Below, in pieces: positions 846 to 8,908 of a stretch of DNA of 64,000 bases. Source of the stretch: Methylophilaceae bacterium. GTDB taxonomy: Bacteria > Pseudomonadota > Gammaproteobacteria > Burkholderiales > Methylophilaceae. The notes below the pieces were generated by a model. The model was not told where the DNA came from and ran no database searches. It saw only the letters and a list, made by a program, of their open reading frames with translations. Every line of letters begins with the position of its first letter. Within the stretch, counting starts at the first letter, position 1. The DNA is taken from NCBI GenBank assembly GCA_013141125.1, contig JABFRO010000002.1:372001-436000 (forward strand), read 5' to 3'. A program made the translations under genes and the position numbers.

Positions 846-1538
846 TTAAGGCACTTCAGCAAAGCGCATACGTGATTGAATAATGCGCGTTTTTCTGGAT
901 AAACCACGCGCTGATTGGTGCGCATCGTAATACCTGGGGTTGGGAATCATGGCAGCCAGTTTGGAGGCTTGTGCGCTTGATAAGCCAGCGGCGCTGGTTT
1001 TGTAGTAGTGTCTGGCGGCGGCTTCCGCACCAAATACCCCATTTCCCCACTCGATAACATTGAGATAAATTTCCAAAATTCGGCGTTTACTGAGCATGTT
1101 TTCCAGCATCAAGGTAATCGCCGCTTCTTCCAGTTTGCGCCAAGGCGTGCGCTTGGTGGAAAGAAACAGATTTTTCGCCAGCTGCTGGCTGATGGTGGAG
1201 CCGCCTGCCACGATTTTGCCTTTTTTCAGGTTTTTCTCGTAGGCCTTTTGTATGCCTTCCCAATCAAAACCTTCATGATCGACAAATTTGGCATCTTCAG
1301 AAGCAACGACCGCGCGCTTGAGATTAATCGAAATCTGCTGGTAGGCCACCCATTTGTGCCTTAATTCGGCATCCGGGTTGTTTTCCTGCAATACGGCTAA
1401 CTGATCTTCCATAAAGGCGCTGGTGGAAGGGTTGTGATTAACCCACCAACAGATATGCAGAAAAATCCATAGCTGATACAGCACGATCAATAAAATCAGC
1501 GCCAGCAGGCCGCGTGTTATCCATTGTTTGATACTCAT
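846..1538 (-). CDS. mtgA: Monofunctional biosynthetic peptidoglycan transglycosylase MtgA
   Basis: Polymerises lipid II into glycan strands at the outer face of the inner membrane. The 230 residues match the family's usual length. An N-terminal membrane anchor lies at about residues 8-29, then comes the GT51 domain with the signature SEDAKFVDHEGFDW, which carries the catalytic glutamate. GSTISQQLAKNLFLS, KLEEAAITLMLE and LEIYLNVIEWG follow. There is no transpeptidase domain, which distinguishes it from the bifunctional MrcA at 42.3 kb. Its ATG overlaps the stop of aroE by four bases (ATGA), so the two are probably cotranscribed and translationally coupled. The aroE-mtgA pairing is common in betaproteobacteria. 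Confidence 0.95.
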   Translation of the reverse strand: MSIKQWITRGLLALILLIVLYQLWIFLHICWWVNHNPSTSAFMEDQLAVLQENNPDAELRHKWVAYQQISINLKRAVVASEDAKFVDHEGFDWEGIQKAYEKNLKKGKIVAGGSTISQQLAKNLFLSTKRTPWRKLEEAAITLMLENMLSKRRILEIYLNVIEWGNGVFGAEAAARHYYKTSAAGLSSAQASKLAAMIPNPRYYDAHQSARGLSRKTRIIQSRMRFAEVP

Positions 1539-2365
1539 GATTGAAATTGCTCAATAACCGGAGCGGTTTGTGGACGCACCTTGCGCCATAGATAAAACGA
1601 TTCGGCTGCCTGTTCAATCAACATGCCCAGGCCGTCCGCGATCCTGCCAGCACCATGGCTACGTGCAAACGCCATAAACGGTGTTTCGCGGCCATACAGC
1701 ATTTCGTAAGCCAGGGCATCCTTGGCGAAAATATCGCCAGGCAATGGTAACTGCGTATCCGTTAAACCCGTAGAAGTGGCGTTAATAACAATATCAAATG
1801 ATTGTCCCTGCAAGCTGTCAAAAGTAGATGTGCTGGTCAAGGTGTGTTGCCCAAACTTTTCCGACTCGATTTTTCTTTGCATATTGAGGGCTTTTTCCAG
1901 GCTTCTGTTAGCAATGACTAGCTGCGCAGGCTGTTCTGCAAGAATCGGCAGTAACACTCCCTCAGCCGCGCCGCCTGCGCCAAGTAACAGTACGCGTTTT
2001 TGTTTAATGGGTACGCCTAAATTGTGCTGAATATCTTGAACCAAGCCTGCACCGTCTGTATTGTCACCAGAAATGCTATTGCCATCAAACATCAAGGTAT
2101 TCACAGCACCCGCAGCCCTGGCTCGCTCGGTTAGCTGATTTGCCATCTGAAAAGCTTCAAATTTAAACGGTACGGTAACATTTACCCCTTTGAATCCTAC
2201 CGCACGCAAAGTGTTGACTGAGCTAACGAAGCCATCCAGCGGTGCCAAAACGCGCAAGTACTCAATTTCTTGTTGCAGTTGTTTGGCAAAGGCCTGATGA
2301 ATTACTGGTGATTTACTGTGTTCGATGGGGTTGCCTATGACGGCGTAACGATCCGCGATTCCCAT
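1535..2365 (-). CDS. aroE: Shikimate dehydrogenase (NADP+)
   Basis: Reduces 3-dehydroshikimate to shikimate, the fourth step of the chorismate pathway, in the cytosol. The 276 residues are normal length. Visible motifs are the shikimate-binding SKSPVIHQAF near the N-terminus, NVTVPFK at about residues 62-68 with the catalytic lysine, NTDGAG, the Rossmann loop GAGGAAEG and the NADP-selecting NRSLEKA. The gene is the first of a two-gene unit with mtgA (four-base overlap). It is transcribed divergently from glnA across a 300-base intergenic region. aroB and aroK of the same pathway lie separately at 35-37 kb. Confidence 0.96.
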   Translation of the reverse strand: MGIADRYAVIGNPIEHSKSPVIHQAFAKQLQQEIEYLRVLAPLDGFVSSVNTLRAVGFKGVNVTVPFKFEAFQMANQLTERARAAGAVNTLMFDGNSISGDNTDGAGLVQDIQHNLGVPIKQKRVLLLGAGGAAEGVLLPILAEQPAQLVIANRSLEKALNMQRKIESEKFGQHTLTSTSTFDSLQGQSFDIVINATSTGLTDTQLPLPGDIFAKDALAYEMLYGRETPFMAFARSHGAGRIADGLGMLIEQAAESFYLWRKVRPQTAPVIEQFQS

Positions 2366-2485
2366 TTATATCCCCTGGAAAATGATGTGATAACAATTTT
2401 TTTGTAAGAACTGCTTTTAAAAAGCATAGTGCAATATTTTTACGCTTTATGCTGAGTCAGTTTGGACTAATATACCATTAGCCGA

Positions 2486-2502
2486 TGCGCCAGCTTGGTG
2501 CA
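2486..2502 (+). promoter_or_regulatory. NtrC binding site 1 upstream of glnA
   Basis: A 17-base dyad, TGCGCCA-GCT-TGGTGCA, matches the enterobacterial NtrC consensus (TGCACCA, three bases, TGGTGCA) with one mismatch in 14 arm positions. It is centred about 127 bases upstream of the start expected from the sigma-54 promoter. That is close to the spacing of the strong NtrC enhancer sites of E. coli glnAp2. The role is inferred from site quality and position. Confidence 0.75.
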
Positions 2503-2515
2503 GTTCAGGTCTTTT

Positions 2516-2532
2516 TGCACTAGCTTAATGCG
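2516..2532 (+). promoter_or_regulatory. NtrC binding site 2 upstream of glnA (weaker)
   Basis: TGCACTA-GCT-TAATGCG has a good left half and a degenerate right half of the NtrC dyad. Its centre is 30 bases downstream of site 1, about three helical turns, the arrangement used for cooperative NtrC oligomer binding at glnA enhancers. Weaker by sequence than site 1. Confidence 0.55.
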
Positions 2533-2594
2533 CTTTAAACCGCTTTCAATTAGGTAAGCTCATGTGAGACAATGAAAAGTTGATAAAATTTTAC

Positions 2595-2609
2595 TGGCAC
2601 AGTTCCTGC
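2595..2609 (+). promoter_or_regulatory. Sigma-54 (RpoN) promoter of glnA
   Basis: TGGCACAGTTCCTGC matches the -24/-12 consensus TGGCACG-N4-TTGC, with GG and GC separated by the obligatory 10 bases and two mismatches overall. Transcription would begin near position 2621, about 45 bases before the glnA ATG. Together with the two upstream dyads this predicts nitrogen-limitation control through NtrC and RpoN. Confidence 0.75.
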
Positions 2610-2665
2610 TTGCCTTGTGGAATAGCGCATATATTTTAATCCAATCCAAATCTTAGGAGAAATGA

Positions 2666-4075
2666 ATGGCAATAGCTGATGTTTTTAAATTAATTGAGGA
2701 AAACGACATCAAGTTTGTTGATTTCCGCTTTACGGATACTCGTGGTAAAGAGCAGCACGTGACTGTGCCTATTTCTGCATTTAATGAAGATAAATTCACT
2801 GAAGGCCATGCGTTTGATGGTTCCTCCATTGGTGGCTGGAAAGGCATTCAAGCCTCCGACATGCAATTGATGCCTGATCCTGATACTGCCAACATTGATC
2901 CCTTCATGGATGAGCCAACGCTTATTCTGACCTGTGATGTGGTTGATCCTACCGATGGCAAAGGTTATGACCGTTGCCCACGCAGCCTGGCAAAACGTGC
3001 TGAAGCCTATTTGAAATCCAGCGGATTGGGTGATACCGCTTATTTTGGTCCAGAACCAGAATTTTTCATTTTTGATTCTGTGCAATGGCATGCAGACATG
3101 AGCGGCAGCTCAGTGAAAATTGGTTCTGAAGAAGGTGCCTGGTCTTCATCAGACAAATTCGACGGCGGCAATATCGGCCACCGCCCGGGCGTGAAAGGTG
3201 GCTATTTCCCTGTGCCTCCCGTGGATTCACTGCAAGATGTACGTTCAGCCATGTGTATAGCACTGGAAGATATGGGTGTGCCCGTTGAAGTGCATCACCA
3301 TGAAGTAGCTACTGCTGGCCAATGCGAAATCGGTACTCAATTCAGCACACTGACAAAACGTGCGGATTGGACACAAATTTTGAAATACGTGGTATTGAAT
3401 ACCGCCCATGCGTATGGCAAAACAGCTACCTTCATGCCTAAACCGATTGTGGGCGATAATGGTTCCGGTATGCATGTGCATCAATCCATCTGGAAAGATG
3501 GCAAAAACCTGTTTGCAGGCAATGGTTATGCCGGTTTGAGCGAGTTCGCGCTGTACTACATTGGCGGCATCATCAAACATGCCAAAGCACTGAACGCCAT
3601 TACCAATCCTGGCACCAACTCTTACAAACGTCTGGTCCCTCATTATGAAGCGCCGGTGAAATTGGCTTATTCCGCCAAGAATCGTTCCGCTGCTATCCGT
3701 ATTCCTTTTGTACATTCAGACAAGGCGCGCCGCGTTGAGGCACGCTTCCCTGATCCTATCGCCAATCCATATCTGGCTTTCAGTGCCTTGATGATGGCCG
3801 GTCTGGATGGTGTGCAAAACAAGATACATCCAGGTGAACCAGCGACCAAAGATTTGTACCATCTGCCACCAGAAGAAGATGCCGCGATTCCAACCGTCTG
3901 CGCTTCATTGGAAGAGGCGCTGGAGAGTTTGGATAAAGATCGTGAGTTTCTGACGCGCGGTGGTGTATTTTCAGAAGATTGGATAGATGCTTACATTGCA
4001 CTCAAAATGGAAGAAGTCAACAAGCTGCGCATGACACCGCATCCTGTTGAGTTTGGTCTATACTACAGCTGTTAA
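2666..4075 (+). CDS. glnA: Glutamine synthetase, type I
   Basis: Makes glutamine from glutamate, ammonia and ATP; a cytosolic dodecamer and the main route of ammonia assimilation. The 469 residues are the standard GSI length. Visible signatures are the beta-grasp N-terminus ([14 protein letters not shown]), the ATP/metal region ([11 protein letters not shown]), GSGMHVHQS and the glutamate-binding [17 protein letters not shown]. The adenylylation motif [10 protein letters not shown] places the modified tyrosine at about residue 398, so the enzyme is probably controlled by GlnE. AGGAGA stands six bases before the ATG. A sigma-54 promoter and two NtrC-type sites lie upstream and a strong terminator follows. 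The ntrBC genes often found downstream are absent here; the island starts instead. Confidence 0.98.
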
Positions 4076-4900: not shown

Positions 4901-6982
4901 ATGGATACATGGTTAAATTTTCAGGTATACATGATGAAAGACAAGCAAGACGCACATAAAACAACAAAAACTGCGCCGTCGAAAACAGAGCCGCTAGAAA
5001 AACAGCTTTGGAAAGCCGCCGACAAACTGCGTAAAAATATTGATGCCGCCGAGTACAAACACATTGTGCTGGGGCTGATATTCCTCAAATATATTTCAGA
5101 TTCTTTCGAGCAACACTTTACCAAACTACAAGCGGGCGAAGGCGAATATGCTGGCGCTGACCCGGAAGACAAAGACGAATACGCAGCAGAAAACGTATTC
5201 TTTGTGCCGCAGGATGCACGCTGGTCTTATTTGCAATCCAATGCGCGTCAGCCTGAAATCGGCAAGCTGGTCGATGCCGCCATGGATGCGCTTGAAGCTG
5301 AAAATGCCCCGCTTAAAGGCGTGTTACCCAAGGTTTTCGCCCGTGACAACTTAGACCCTGCAAGCCTTGGTCAGTTGATTGATTTAGTCGGCAACATTGC
5401 CTTGGGTGATGCCAAATCCCGCAGTGCCGATGTGTTAGGTCATGTGTTTGAATACTTCTTAGGGGAGTTTGCGCTAGCAGAGGGCAAACAAGGTGGGCAG
5501 TTCTATACGCCGCGCTCAGTTGTTGAGTTGTTGGTGGAAATGCTTGAGCCATATCAAGGTCGCGTGTTTGACCCCTGCTGTGGCTCTGGCGGAATGTTTG
5601 TGCAATCTGAAAAGTTTGTGGCAGACCACCAAGGCCGCGCCAATGATATTTCCATCTACGGGCAAGAGAGTAACCAAACCACATGGCGTTTGGCGAAGAT
5701 GAACCTTGCCATTCGTGGCATTGAAGCCAGTCAGGTGAAATGGAACAACGAAGGCAGCTTTTTAAATGATGCGCATAAAGATGTAAAAGCTGATTACATT
5801 ATTGCCAACCCGCCATTCAATGTAAGTGATTGGTCTGGCGAGCTACTGCGCACCGATGGCCGCTGGCAATATGGCGTACCGCCCGCAGGCAATGCCAACT
5901 TTGCATGGCTGCAACACTTTATCTACCACCTCTCCCCCACAGGCCAAGCAGGCGTGGTGCTGGCCAAAGGCGCACTCACCAGCAAAACCAGTGGCGAAGG
6001 TGAAATCCGCAAAGCGCTGATTGAGCAAGGCAATGTGATAGATTGCATCGTCAACCTGCCCGCCAAGCTATTCCTCAATACGCAAATTCCTGCTGCTTTG
6101 TGGTTTATGAGCCGCAACCGAGGCTCTAATAATCAAAGCAATGGCAAATTCAGAAACCGTAGTAACGAGATATTGTTTATCGACGCCCGCAACCTAGGCC
6201 ACCTCATCAACCGCCGTACCAAAGAGCTGAGCCATGAGGATATAAAACAAATCACCGACACCTACCACAACTGGCGCAACAATATACCCTCTCCCTCTGG
6301 GAGAGGGCAGGGTGAGGGAAGCAGTGAGGGCAATAAACTACCAGAGAAACTGCTTGAAAACGCACGAAAATTACGAAAAAATCAAACCGATGCTGAAGCT
6401 CTACTTTGGAGTTTGTTGCGCAGCTGTCAGCTTAATGATTGTAAATTTCGCCGTCAGCACCCTATAGAGCCTTATATTCTCGACTTTTACTGCCATGAAG
6501 AAAAGCTAGCGATTGAATTGGATGGCGGACAACACAATACAGAATCTGCCATTGCTAATGACCATAAAAGAACCGAGTATCTAAAATCACAAGGTATTAC
6601 CGTATTACGGTTTTGGAATAATGACGTATTGCAAAATACCGAATCTGTGTTGCAGCAAATATATAGCACCCTCACCCCAGCCCTCTCCCAAAGGGAGAGG
6701 GAGTCAAAAGCAGAACCCTCGCCCGCAGGCGGGAGAGGGCAGGGTGAGAGAAATGCCTACCAAGACATCCCCGGCTTCTGCGCATCTGTCAGCCTAGCGC
6801 GTGTTAAAGAACTCGATTACGTACTCACCCCAGGCCGTTATGTAGGCCTGCCCGATGATGAAGATGACTTTAACTTTGCCGAGCGCTTTAATGCCCTAAA
6901 AGCTGAATTTGAAGCACAGTTGGTGGAGGAAGAAAAACTCAATAAAGCCATTGCTGACAACTTGGCGAGGGTAAAGCTGTGA
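4901..6982 (+). CDS. hsdM: Type I restriction-modification methyltransferase subunit with inserted DUF559 nuclease domain
   Basis: Adenine-N6 methyltransferase subunit of a type I R-M complex (M2S, or R2M2S with HsdR). It has an N-terminal HsdM bundle (about residues 20-150), the SAM motif FDPCCGSGG at about 224-232 and the catalytic NPPF in [12 protein letters not shown]. The 693 residues exceed the usual 500-540 because about 155 residues (462-616) interrupt the region between YHNWRN and YQDIPGF. The insert holds a complete DUF559 PD-(D/E)XK domain (D528, E539, D541 visible) flanked by translated palindromic repeats. The frame is intact throughout. ATGs at 4931 and 4934 are alternative starts. 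hsdS follows with a GTGA overlap. Whether the chimera is still an active methyltransferase is unknown. Confidence 0.93.
6286..6318 (+). repeat. CCCTCTCCC palindromic repeat, copy 1 (forward)
   Basis: A perfect nine-base stem, CCCTCTCCC at 6287-6295 and GGGAGAGGG at 6299-6307, encloses the loop TCT. The tail CAGGGTGAGGG follows. It is translated within HsdM as [11 protein letters not shown]. Confidence 0.9.
6668..6703 (-). repeat. CCCTCTCCC palindromic repeat, copy 2 (inverted)
   Basis: The same nine-base stem (6681-6689 and 6693-6701, loop AAA), here with the tail on the other side (CCCTCACCCCAG before the stem), so it is inverted relative to copy 1. It is translated within HsdM as [11 protein letters not shown]. 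Confidence 0.9.
6715..6750 (+). repeat. CCCTCTCCC palindromic repeat, copy 3 (forward, diverged stem)
   Basis: Stem CCCTCGCCCGC with complementary GGCGGGAGAGGG, then the tail CAGGGTGAGAG. Same orientation as copy 1, 11 bases after copy 2. It is translated as [12 protein letters not shown]. HsdM homology resumes directly afterwards. Confidence 0.85.
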
Positions 6983-8133
6983 GTGAGTGGCGCGAATTAA
7001 CCCTGAACCAAATTACTGAGCCAGTTAAAAGCACGTATTTGCCAAAAGGTGATGAACAACTGGCTTATATTGGACTTGAGCATATTGAACAAGAAACTCT
7101 TAGGCTTACAGGCGTTGGCAAATCATCCGATGTCACTAGCAATAAATTCAAGTTTGAAACTAATGATGTACTTTTTGGAAAATTAAGGCCGTATTTCAGA
7201 AAAGTCTATAAACCAAAATTCTCAGGAATTTGCTCTACTGATATTTGGGTCTTCAGGGCAAAAAAAGGATTTGTACAAGATTATTTATTCTATTTTTTAG
7301 CTAGTTGGGATTTTGTAGATACGGCAAATAGCGGTGAAGGTGGCACTCGTATGCCTCGCGCTGACTGGAACTTCCTTAAATCTACAAGCTGGCTTGTTCC
7401 CTGTGAAGAAGAACAAAAAGCCATCGCCTCAGTCCTCAGCAGTTTGGATGACAAAATCGACCTGCTCCACCGCCAAAACACCACCCTAGAACGCATGGCC
7501 GAAACGCTGTTTAGACTGTGGTTTGTAGAAGAAGCGCAGGAGGTTTGGGAGGAAGTACCATTAAGAGATGTCTGCTCAATAAACAATGGTTATGCGTTTC
7601 AAAGCGAAACTTATAGAGAAACAGGTCAAAAAATCATCAGAACAATGAATTTTAATAATCATTGGATTGAATTTAATAGCCTAGTTTATATTTCAGAAGA
7701 ACTCGCAAGGAGTTTTGGAAAGTTTTATTTGAGACGCAATGATTTTTTGTTAGTGATGGTTGGTGCAAGTTTAGGTAATTTTGCAATTGTTACTGATGAC
7801 GTAATACCATCTTTGCAAAATCAAAACATGTGGTGCTTTAGATCTGATGAAAATATTTTCCAGCACTATCTAAATTTTGCACTACGTAACATCATTAATG
7901 ATGCGTTAAACGGTGCGTCAGGAAGTGCAAGAGAATTTTTCCAAAAAGGCGTTTTTTACGAAATTAAGATTCAAATACCTCCCAATGATTTAATTCAGAA
8001 ATTTCATAATATTTCTGAGAGTTATTTTTCAAAGATTGAATTAAACCGAAAGCAAATCAAAACCCTAGAAAATCTCCGCGATAACTTGCTCCCCAAGCTA
8101 ATGAGCGGTGACGTAAGAGTGCGCGATGACTGA
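6979..8133 (+). CDS. hsdS: Type I restriction-modification specificity subunit
   Basis: Recognises the bipartite DNA target and bridges two HsdM subunits. The 384 residues form two target-recognition domains (about 1-140 and 190-330). Each is followed by a conserved helical spacer: [30 protein letters not shown] and, at the C-terminus, [27 protein letters not shown]. Both spacers are typical of HsdS. The GTG start overlaps the hsdM stop (GTGA), implying translational coupling. The target sequence cannot be predicted from the protein. hsdR is 3.5 kb further on, separated by unrelated genes. Confidence 0.93.
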
Positions 8134-8142
8134 AATTAGCTC

Positions 8143-8219
8143 GTAGGTTGGGCTGAAAAGCCCAACAATCAATGCAACAAACGATTACCGTTGGGCTTCC
8201 AAATGTCAGCCCAACCTAC
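8143..8219. repeat. RAYT-associated REP pair (REPIN-like), copy 1
   Basis: A 77-base unit starts GTAGGTTGGGC, with an inner hairpin GGGCTGAAAAGCCC. It ends with an inverted relative (GTTGGGCTTCC to CAGCCCAACCTAC), so two REP sequences face each other. It stands directly between hsdS and the RAYT gene. Confidence 0.85.
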
Positions 8220-8263: not shown

Positions 8264-8340
8264 GTAGGTTGGGCTGAAAAGCCCAACGCACAATGACACA
8301 TACGTTAACCGTTGGGCTTCCAAAAGTCAGCCCAACCTAC
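8264..8340. repeat. RAYT-associated REP pair (REPIN-like), copy 2
   Basis: A second 77-base unit of the same design and orientation starts 121 bases after the start of copy 1. It differs mainly in the central spacer. It ends 28 bases before the RAYT start codon. Confidence 0.85.
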
Positions 8341-8368
8341 AAGATGAGGTAAATTGGGAGGTCATGTT

Positions 8369-8908
8369 TTGCGTTATCGACGAGCGGATGTGGCAGGCGG
8401 CACTTATTTTTTTACGGTGAATTTGGCGGATAGAAAAGCCGATTTACTCACGCGCCATATTGATGTTTTGCGCGAGGTGATGCAACAGGTGAAACAGGCG
8501 CACCCGTTTGTGATTGAGGCGATGGTGGTGTTGCCTGAACATTTGCACACGATTTGGCGTTTGCCGCACGATGATGTGGATTTCCCTATGCGGTGGAGTT
8601 TGATTAAGGCAGGGTTTTCGCGGCGTTTGCCTAAAACTGAAACGATACGCGCCAGCCGCCAAGCAAAACGTGAGCGTGGTATTTGGCAACGCCGTTATTG
8701 GGAGCATTGCCTCCGCAACGAGATCGATTTTGAGCGGCATGTGGATTATATTCATTACAACCCTGTGAAACATGGGTATGTGCGCCGAGTGATTGATTGG
8801 CCGTTTTCAACGTTTCATAAATTTGTTGAGCGAGGGGTTTTGTCAGCGGATTGGGGCGATAGCATGGTGAATATTGAGGCGGGTGGTGAGTGTTTATTGG
8901 TGTGGTGA
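8369..8908 (+). CDS. REP-associated tyrosine transposase (RAYT, Y1 family)
   Basis: A single-domain Y1 transposase related to IS200/IS605 TnpA, which is thought to mobilise REP palindromes by single-strand cleavage. Features are the N-terminal RYRRADVAGGTYFFTVNLADR, the metal-binding HUH-type motif in PEHLHTIWRLP (about residues 55-60) and the catalytic tyrosine region DYIHYNPVKHGYV. The 179 residues are the usual RAYT length. I chose the TTG at 8369 because GGGAGG lies seven bases upstream and the family-typical N-terminus starts there; a TTG at 8354 is also in frame. It is flanked on both sides by GTAGGTTGGGC repeats, its probable substrates. Located inside the hsd operon in the same orientation. 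Confidence 0.9.
   Translation: MRYRRADVAGGTYFFTVNLADRKADLLTRHIDVLREVMQQVKQAHPFVIEAMVVLPEHLHTIWRLPHDDVDFPMRWSLIKAGFSRRLPKTETIRASRQAKRERGIWQRRYWEHCLRNEIDFERHVDYIHYNPVKHGYVRRVIDWPFSTFHKFVERGVLSADWGDSMVNIEAGGECLLVW

Follow-up and report, generated by a model that had tools for sequence, protein, structure and literature searches.

The 64-kb window analysed here, a stretch of 64,000 nt from a Methylophilaceae genome, holds a type I hsdM gene whose reading frame is interrupted by a nuclease domain bounded by palindromes, and this insert is the subject of the present work. More specifically, the hsdM open reading frame (ORF) encodes, in order, HsdM_N, N6_Mtase, DUF559 (PF04480) and the HsdM C-terminus with its YQDIPGFC segment, and is followed by hsdS (Table 1). 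Insert-free HsdM proteins of the same family (L112, L113 and L114) share 87-90% amino acid identity with the window HsdM, and the DNA match to these homologues ends at 6278-6280 and restarts at 6757-6758. Because the match ends and restarts there and the native linker spans about four codons, the insert is placed at approximately 6287-6751. A first-pass annotation of this DNA had HsdM broken in frame by 155 codons containing DUF559; the interruption and its length stand, and the position then given (6286-6750) differs by a one-base ambiguity. The three palindromes described at that time, in the order forward, inverted and forward, are likewise present, and they are the only three-arm motifs (defined below) detected by the finder in the window. 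Within the insert the earliest in-frame ATG, GTG or TTG is a TTG at 6413, by which point 22 residues of the Pfam match have already passed, and the earlier statement that the nuclease could exist only as an HsdM fusion therefore holds for these three codons upstream of the domain.

Table 1. Coordinates of hsdM, its insert and the neighbouring hsdS in the window.
Feature	Position	Strand	Evidence
hsdM ORF (host gene, 693 aa with the insert included)	4901..6982	+	Pfam; insert-free homologues L112-L114
Native HsdM linker, left remnant	6281..6286	+	junction comparison with L112-L114
Whole in-frame insert, 465 nt = 155 codons (boxC+ / DUF559 / boxC- / boxC+)	6287..6751	+	
boxC-type triplex motif, third arm toward nuclease	6287..6318	+	three-arm finder
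DUF559 PD-(D/E)XK nuclease domain, HsdM residues 483-591	6347..6673	+	Pfam E 1.1e-39; PDB profile matches 3hrl, 3r3p; predicted fold
boxC-type triplex motif, inverted, third arm toward nuclease	6669..6701	-	three-arm finder
Third boxC-type motif, forward, left arm CCCTCGCCC	6716..6750	+	three-arm finder
Native HsdM linker, right remnant, then YQDIPGFC	6752..6757	+	junction comparison with L112-L114
hsdS, same type I system (context)	6979..8133	+	Pfam Methylase_S

By its sequence the window palindrome is the boxC/PIT/TM_ECO repeat, CCCTCTCCC-loop-GGGAGAGGG-nn-GGGGTGAGGG, which has been known from Escherichia coli since the 1990s and has been an orphan repeat ever since. The palindrome of the first-pass annotation is thus an already known one, and its third arm, absent from that description, matters. 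The finder used here searches for arm 1, loop, arm 2, gap and arm 3, where arm 2 is the complement of arm 1 and arm 3 the mirror of arm 2, with lineage variants accepted; all three window motifs possess the two complementary arms and the mirror arm. Both the sequence and the three-arm layout are those tabulated for boxC (CCCTCTCCC-loop-GGGAGAGGG-nn-GGG(G)TGAGGG; PMC4666352 Table 1), and the arrangement in inverted pairs is also that of E. coli. The passages of PMC4666352 that treat E. coli describe boxC as intergenic with no mobility gene near, whereas here it flanks DUF559 and also lies inside coding genes, all three window copies being inside hsdM. According to the same passages, the 23 copies of K-12 are all intergenic, mobility activities around them were never found, and the potential intrastrand triplex was shown in vitro for single strands and was unsupported in vivo by that study's own footprinting. 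One hundred palindromes of the form CCCTCTCCCXX(X)GGGAGAGGG are reported from Enterobacter sp. 638 (PMC2869309), and boxC also turned up in a survey of stem-loops (PMC2267715).

The strict palindrome occurs three times in the 3.2 Mb window genome, twice within the insert, and a reversed-pattern control is absent; on these counts a chance origin of the insert palindromes is excluded. The high copy number expected of a REP-like repeat was not found in this genome, which has three perfect palindromes and a single DUF559 match. Its one further perfect boxC is at L004 (G000:C4, minus strand, 1434-3002), in frame and close to the C-terminal end of a coding sequence judged by eye to be a DNA methyltransferase.

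The distribution of the motif around DUF559 genes is revealing of a close association between the two. DUF559 loci were gathered by scanning species genomes with the domain alone, no palindrome forming part of the query; the set comprises the best 80 of at least 581 confirmed loci from many phyla and therefore leans to relatives of the window nuclease. A three-arm motif lies within 250 nt in 75 of the 80 loci and on both sides in 54, and exact CCCTCTCCC/GGGAGAGGG arms lie within the same distance in 56 (both sides, 45). The commonest polarity among the 54 two-sided pairs is +/- (42 pairs), in which the third arms face the gene. Motif density is 8.6 per kb at 0-100 nt versus 63 motifs in 700 kb at 500-6100 nt, an approximately 95-fold difference, and strict half-arms fall from 10.1 per kb in the first 100 nt to 0.06-0.2 per kb at 500-6100 nt. 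The motif is also near DUF559 in 22 of 30 loci of a class-wide sample, drawn from 73 DUF559-positive genomes, and in 13 of 15 relatives, these being the matches with E <=1.6e-27 out of 26, the window included. Eleven relatives' matches were dropped, of which L017, on a truncated contig, has the motif; the other ten (L018-L022 and L025-L029) are taken up below. As controls, Y1_Tnp loci of the same class have the motif in 0 of 30 cases and shuffled flanks in 0 of 400 (80 loci x 5 shuffles). The test proposed in the first-pass annotation, whether palindromes flank DUF559 genes more often than chance, is answered in the affirmative by these figures, with lineage variants of the three-arm layout counted. 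That the pattern reflects an assembly artefact or chance palindromes is a negligible prospect: many loci do come from metagenome-assembled genomes, but the element is found as well in records without a metagenome-assembly label, those of Mariprofundus erugo, Methylomonas sp. WSC-7 and Stagnimonas aquatica, a boxC lies beside ycjD (b1289), the DUF559 gene of E. coli K-12, and, in addition to the empty shuffled flanks, the reversed-pattern control is 0 in 61 of 61 relatives' genomes and in 367 of 369 class genomes.

A similar association is evident at the level of whole genomes. Among the 369 class genomes, the strict palindrome is present in 55 of 73 with DUF559 (a match with E up to 1e-20) and in 59 of the 296 that lack it (p 1e-18, a p value that ignores phylogeny; odds ratio 12.3), and the mean copy number is 15.7 versus 2.2. 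The genome-wide count proposed earlier thus shows more palindromes in DUF559 genomes. In the 61 genomes of relatives it is present in 8 of 14 with a strong DUF559 and in 5 of 47 others. Other lineages use variant palindromes, a further refinement of the first description. At L048, L055 and L075 the hairpins flanking DUF559 are CCCTCTTA..TAAGAGGG, and at L108 they are CCCTCTTG..CAAGAGGG, which differs from the former at one pair. Among 18 genomes, the CCCTCTTA form was counted 18, 2 and 66 times in those of L048, L055 and L075, respectively (flanking copies included: at least 2, 1 and 1), three times in that of L108 and twice in that of L041, and it is absent from the other 13. Copies of this variant, the one examined, thus occur almost exclusively where the resident DUF559 is flanked by it. 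Evidence of this kind, in which a repeat variant goes with a particular nuclease, is what linked RAYT to REP (PMC3116915); here it covers a single variant.

Many of the DUF559 loci resemble the window in being joined to other genes. An open extension of at least 55 aa on at least one side is present in 37 of the 80 loci, of which 29 were Pfam-scanned; L038, L041, L042, L048, L063, L070, L089 and L101 lie outside that scan, as does L005. In 12 of the 80 loci DUF559 is enclosed by host Pfam domains within a single frame, the hosts being HrpA (L033, L037), ValRS (L034), MetH (L040), MetG (L047, L053, L056, L057), a class I tRNA synthetase (L052), Mfd (L058) and PriA (L061, L106), so that, beyond what was first noted, the same elements are found inside essential-type genes. 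Host domains on one side belong to HsdS (L036), other DNA methylases (L031, L039, L051), DUF1156 (L059), a Mur ligase (L100), a GATase_5 protein (L082), a GHMP kinase (L046), M14 peptidases (L081, L093) and an SMC-like protein (L099). The linker that takes up the insert in the window HsdM, ahead of Y.DIP.[FY]C, contains one also in L030 and L032 and, judging by its C-terminal side, in L038 (the HsdM label of L038 and the methylase label of L005 were assigned by eye). In the HsdM of L035 the nuclease lies about 80 residues beyond the methylase domain, in or near the linker region. The same linker carries another translated palindromic repeat, of SHCEEQSDAAIQ type, in L112, and a third kind, of HSGESRNP type, in L119; this loop of HsdM therefore tolerates insertions and is used by several repeat families. 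Ordinary domain acquisition, in which selection would have fused the nuclease to HsdM as a second cutting activity, could account for the occupied linkers of the window, L030, L032 and L038 and for the nuclease elsewhere in or near this region in L035, and is in keeping with conserved catalytic residues and with restriction-type genes being frequent hosts. It is nevertheless highly improbable, since the same element with its repeats resides in MetG, ValRS, Mfd, PriA, MetH and HrpA, where a restriction role is senseless, and since the linker in relatives takes unrelated translated repeats too.

Comparison of nucleases with their hosts reveals histories that disagree. The window and L030 are 76% identical in DUF559 and 54% in HsdM, whereas L030 and L032 are 61% identical in DUF559 and 88% in HsdM; between the hrpA loci L178 and L188 pN is 0.03 for the host and 0.16 for the nuclease. 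L033 and L037 share 81% identity in DUF559 at two different HrpA positions. A single ancestral HsdM-nuclease fusion was considered and is rejected, because the identities are discordant and the nearest relatives are insert-free. The first-pass annotation would have been refuted by close relatives sharing the insert as a fixed domain, or by the lack of any palindrome link at DUF559 genes elsewhere. Neither is the case: the link is described above, the nearest relatives lack the insert, and in other HsdM lineages the inserts in this linker have histories at odds with those of their hosts. At hrpA site A of Sideroxydans and its relatives (21 of 24 loci analysed), DUF559 with boxC is present in seven loci and a single boxC in one (L183), while 11 are empty and two uncovered. 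The nuclease embedded in hrpA is under purifying selection, with dN/dS of 0.04-0.13 (11 of 21 pairs estimable; dS saturated in the other 10). In hrpA of Gallionellaceae-type genomes, site B (L190-L195) and site C (L186, L189, L176, L178) carry boxC pairs and unrelated GTCATTCCGG-type repeats, and this one gene thus collects several repeat families. A reading without any mobility would have DUF559 as a resident structure-specific repair nuclease and the hairpins as regulatory elements or attenuators. The superfamily of DUF559 includes the repair nicking enzymes Vsr and MutH (PMC1189080), triplex repeats have been tied to instability in E. coli (PMC4666352), and arms 1 and 2 of the repeats are predicted to fold as single-strand DNA hairpins. 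However, the elements lie in frame at different places of unrelated genes while close relatives have empty sites, and flanking on two sides with inward polarity is unlike a leader attenuator, which makes this reading quite improbable.

The enzyme itself is a well-supported member of its family, with a DUF559 profile score of 135.1 bits against a curated cut-off of 20.6. PD-(D/E)XK-like residues (D..E.DG..H) are conserved in the alignment, and a regular expression for the motif matches 75 of the 80 loci; of the five misses, L087 is without the first D and four differ at the C or F position. Profile matches in the PDB are to 3hrl, a Neisseria endonuclease-like protein (5e-38), and to 3r3p, a mobile intron protein (1.2e-4), and with the predicted structure (pLDDT 90.6) 3hrl and the I-Bth0305I catalytic domain rank top and Vsr lower. 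The window nuclease shares its Pfam family with the YcjD/DUF559/COG2852 Vsr-like nucleases, of which YcjD was treated in 2005 as a PD-(D/E)XK member whose profile detects Vsr (PMC1189080); the link to a repeat is what differs, being absent from the YcjD passages of that paper and from the titles and abstract openings surveyed. I-Bth0305I (3r3p) is the nearest characterised match in fold and profile and resembles the window nuclease also in the repeated occupancy of one site, but the insert is neither intron nor intein by domain scans, has boxC at both ends and keeps the reading frame. Splicing domains were found neither in the window ORF (E up to 1e-3) nor in the 29 fused ORFs (E up to 1e-5), and the Pfam content of these frames consists of host-type domains, DUF559 and the overlapping MTES_1575.

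The kinship with I-Bth0305I lends some weight to an alternative in which the repeats are the target, a homing-endonuclease-like DUF559 entering pre-existing boxC copies that something else has spread. In its favour, occupancy of one loop recurs in HsdM, in MetG and at hrpA site A, nuclease and host histories being at odds in HsdM and hrpA, and boxC persists in genomes free of DUF559. We regard it as unlikely, however. Inverted pairs of one polarity flank the gene in 42 of the 54 two-sided loci and the examined repeat variant follows the resident nuclease, both of which suggest that gene and repeat have spread together, and the window genome offers only one other perfect copy as a target.

In E. 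coli K-12, a full boxC lies approximately 170 nt past the 3' end of ycjD and is, by its coordinates, TM_ECO no. 9 of PMC4666352; a degenerate hairpin overlaps that end. K-12 boxC pairs elsewhere (L171, L172 and L173) are +/- with third arms inward, like most DUF559 flanks. The pair between hrpB and mrcB is polymorphic, its 481-nt query being covered to at least 80% in 3521 of 5375 matching genomes; three examined strains, including EC958, are without the pair and a fourth, EH2252, has a single hairpin, a pattern that could reflect gain or loss. For ycjD, at least 80% of a 1001-nt query is covered in 3333 of 5426 genomes. A clean empty ycjD site was not obtained from the one ycjD-less strain compared, UTI89, which has TetR and RND efflux genes there, known as the eefRABCD operon (PMC12817139). 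At this fabI-sapF locus (L110, L202), ycjD with boxC alternates with the eef efflux operon among strains.

Linkage, polarity, the match of one repeat variant to its nuclease, recurrent occupancy of loops with discordant histories and purifying selection in hrpA are the observations from which an interpretation can be drawn. The best explanation is that the hsdM insert is probably a copy of a minimal mobile element, made up of a lone DUF559 (YcjD/Vsr-like) gene bounded by inverted boxC-type repeats. On our best reading DUF559, an enzyme unrelated to RAYT, would have for boxC-type repeats the mobilising role that RAYT has for REPs. The nuclease-linked palindromic mobile element put forward in the first-pass annotation is thus supported by the linkage and genome-level tests, from which we infer its mobility. 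Each repeat is a hairpin, onto which the third arm might fold to give an intrastrand triplex, and hairpin or triplex may be recognised when exposed at replication. Most likely it is its own repeat that the nuclease recognises, with a cut there or at the target, and repair or copying would then place the unit elsewhere; the choice of strand, and of transposition or homing, is inference. The gene-less boxC pairs could be non-autonomous derivatives, as REPINs are for RAYT. Such a scheme of recognition, cutting and copying would explain the inverted ends, the gene-less pairs and the recurrent occupancy of the same loops. Five of the six frames through the repeat are free of stops (the other meets a TGA in the third arm), and the gene too can be read through; for this reason insertions that enter tolerant loops in sense and in frame survive, and the element persists as a translated domain in hsdM, metG, priA, hrpA and others.

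Several observations weigh against a mobile DUF559-boxC element, in addition to the neglect of phylogeny in the p value given above. Repeats persist without a detectable nuclease: 16 of the 59 DUF559-free genomes that hold the palindrome have at least 10 copies and one has 78, for which loss, incomplete assemblies or another driver may be responsible. The exact palindrome is absent from 18 of the 73 DUF559 genomes, and the match between nuclease and repeat variant rests on one variant. The finder detects no motif in five of the 80 loci (L074, L083, L090, L100 and L101), in 8 of the 30 class loci and in 2 of the 15 relatives. Third arms point outward (-/+) in seven of the 54 two-sided pairs, and three further pairs are ++ and two --. 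Among the ten weaker DUF559 matches set aside above, nine are without the motif in their 3.1-3.3 kb, and the one that has it, L028, is part of a split gene whose remainder is in L024; the link to the repeat thus seems confined to a YcjD-like core rather than extending to every DUF559 protein. In E. coli, just one side of ycjD has a full boxC motif, in a polarity other than the common one, and PMC4666352 places most boxC sites at identical positions across all of its 56 strains, so that movement there would be slow or past. The alignment with insert-free homologues that had been proposed located the ends of the insert, but no clean target-site duplication of the kind associated with insertion sequences and MITEs was found in hsdM, at hrpA sites A-C or at the E. 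coli hrpB-mrcB pair, nor any exact empty site among the comparisons. No transposition or excision event was seen in the loci compared (hsdM, hrpA and E. coli).

Among known repeat systems, RAYT/REP (REPtron, REPIN) offers the closest parallel, in that a small nuclease gene lies between inverted palindromes, as it does in the window, and gene-less inverted pairs are dispersed (PMC3116915, PMC3733652). The window enzyme is a PD-(D/E)XK DUF559 protein, whereas RAYT is an HUH tyrosine transposase (Y1_Tnp); the hsdM ORF with its insert matches DUF559 and gives no Y1_Tnp match. Moreover, boxC differs in its third, mirror arm, and in-frame insertions inside genes are frequent. No GTAG tag accompanies the repeats of the window insert, the only matches to this sequence or its complement being at 6338 and 6401, within the nuclease part. 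The DUF559-boxC system works like a REPtron but is not one, having neither HUH transposase nor GTAG tag and differing in enzyme class, end structure and in-frame entry into genes. Rickettsia palindromic elements (RPE) and REPs of the CGTC kind are likewise palindromic repeats in frame within genes, REPs being found also inside tRNA synthetase and repair genes, and for the CGTC kind the passages concerned know of no dedicated transposase (PMC10969869, PMC3733652). Their repeat sequence is another one and no nuclease gene is described in them in those passages, whereas the window insert carries a nuclease domain and is thus no short in-frame palindrome without an enzyme.

Spread on plasmids was also considered, where a scan for DUF559 matched 45 of 72,556 records, some of them chromosome-sized records filed as plasmids. 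Five of the matching records were inspected with a relaxed finder. In three, motifs lie no more than 250 nt away to either side (Neisseria gonorrhoeae, ++; Synechocystis, -/+; Deinococcus, -/+), that of Azospirillum has it upstream only, and that of Picosynechococcus has none. Since the nuclease linked to boxC, or to variants of the same layout, spans Deinococcus, a cyanobacterium and E. coli, the question of who moves boxC is now directly testable, YcjD being present in a laboratory strain. The wider proposition, that DUF559/YcjD proteins are the missing mobilisers of boxC and with it represent an undescribed class of minimal element (a lone PD-(D/E)XK nuclease with triplex-forming ends, 465 nt in the window), which repeatedly enters coding loops of essential genes in frame, stays there as an extra domain that is under selection and catalytically intact, and moves between homologous sites in a homing-like manner, stands in our judgement at about even chances. 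We know of no autonomous element with a lone PD-(D/E)XK nuclease. In the open-access literature, covered mostly as titles and abstract openings and with subscription papers and preprints outside it, no repeat link of DUF559/YcjD/COG2852 and no instance of boxC and ycjD named together was found. If the proposition is true, a PD-(D/E)XK route would join the repeat world known for HUH enzymes, and the DUF559-boxC element would point to an unrecognised kind of mobile DNA, often inside other genes, across bacteria. The natural cases of an insert of approximately 150 residues of nuclease in MetRS, PriA, Mfd and HrpA, with the frame intact, may be useful for protein engineering and for the annotation of 'fusion' proteins.

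Three minor observations concern neighbouring features. The outward (-/+) loci are L034, L046, L061, L080, L081, L093 and L099, and all but L080 have open extensions into neighbouring frames. On two cyanobacterial plasmids (L273 and L275), DUF559 lies directly upstream of a PglX methyltransferase / DUF1156, which are defence-type genes; this context is in line with restriction-type genes being frequent hosts. Finally, 1.6 kb from the boxC element of the window, an ORF at 8354-8908 is RAYT-like, with a Y1_Tnp match (E 1.8e-4) just under the Pfam cut-off. Its palindromes, at 8143-8166 and 8264-8287, are of the GTAGGTTGGGCTGAAAAGCCCAAC (GTAGGTTGGGC) type and not boxC, and the arrangement is that of a RAYT/REP-like pair.

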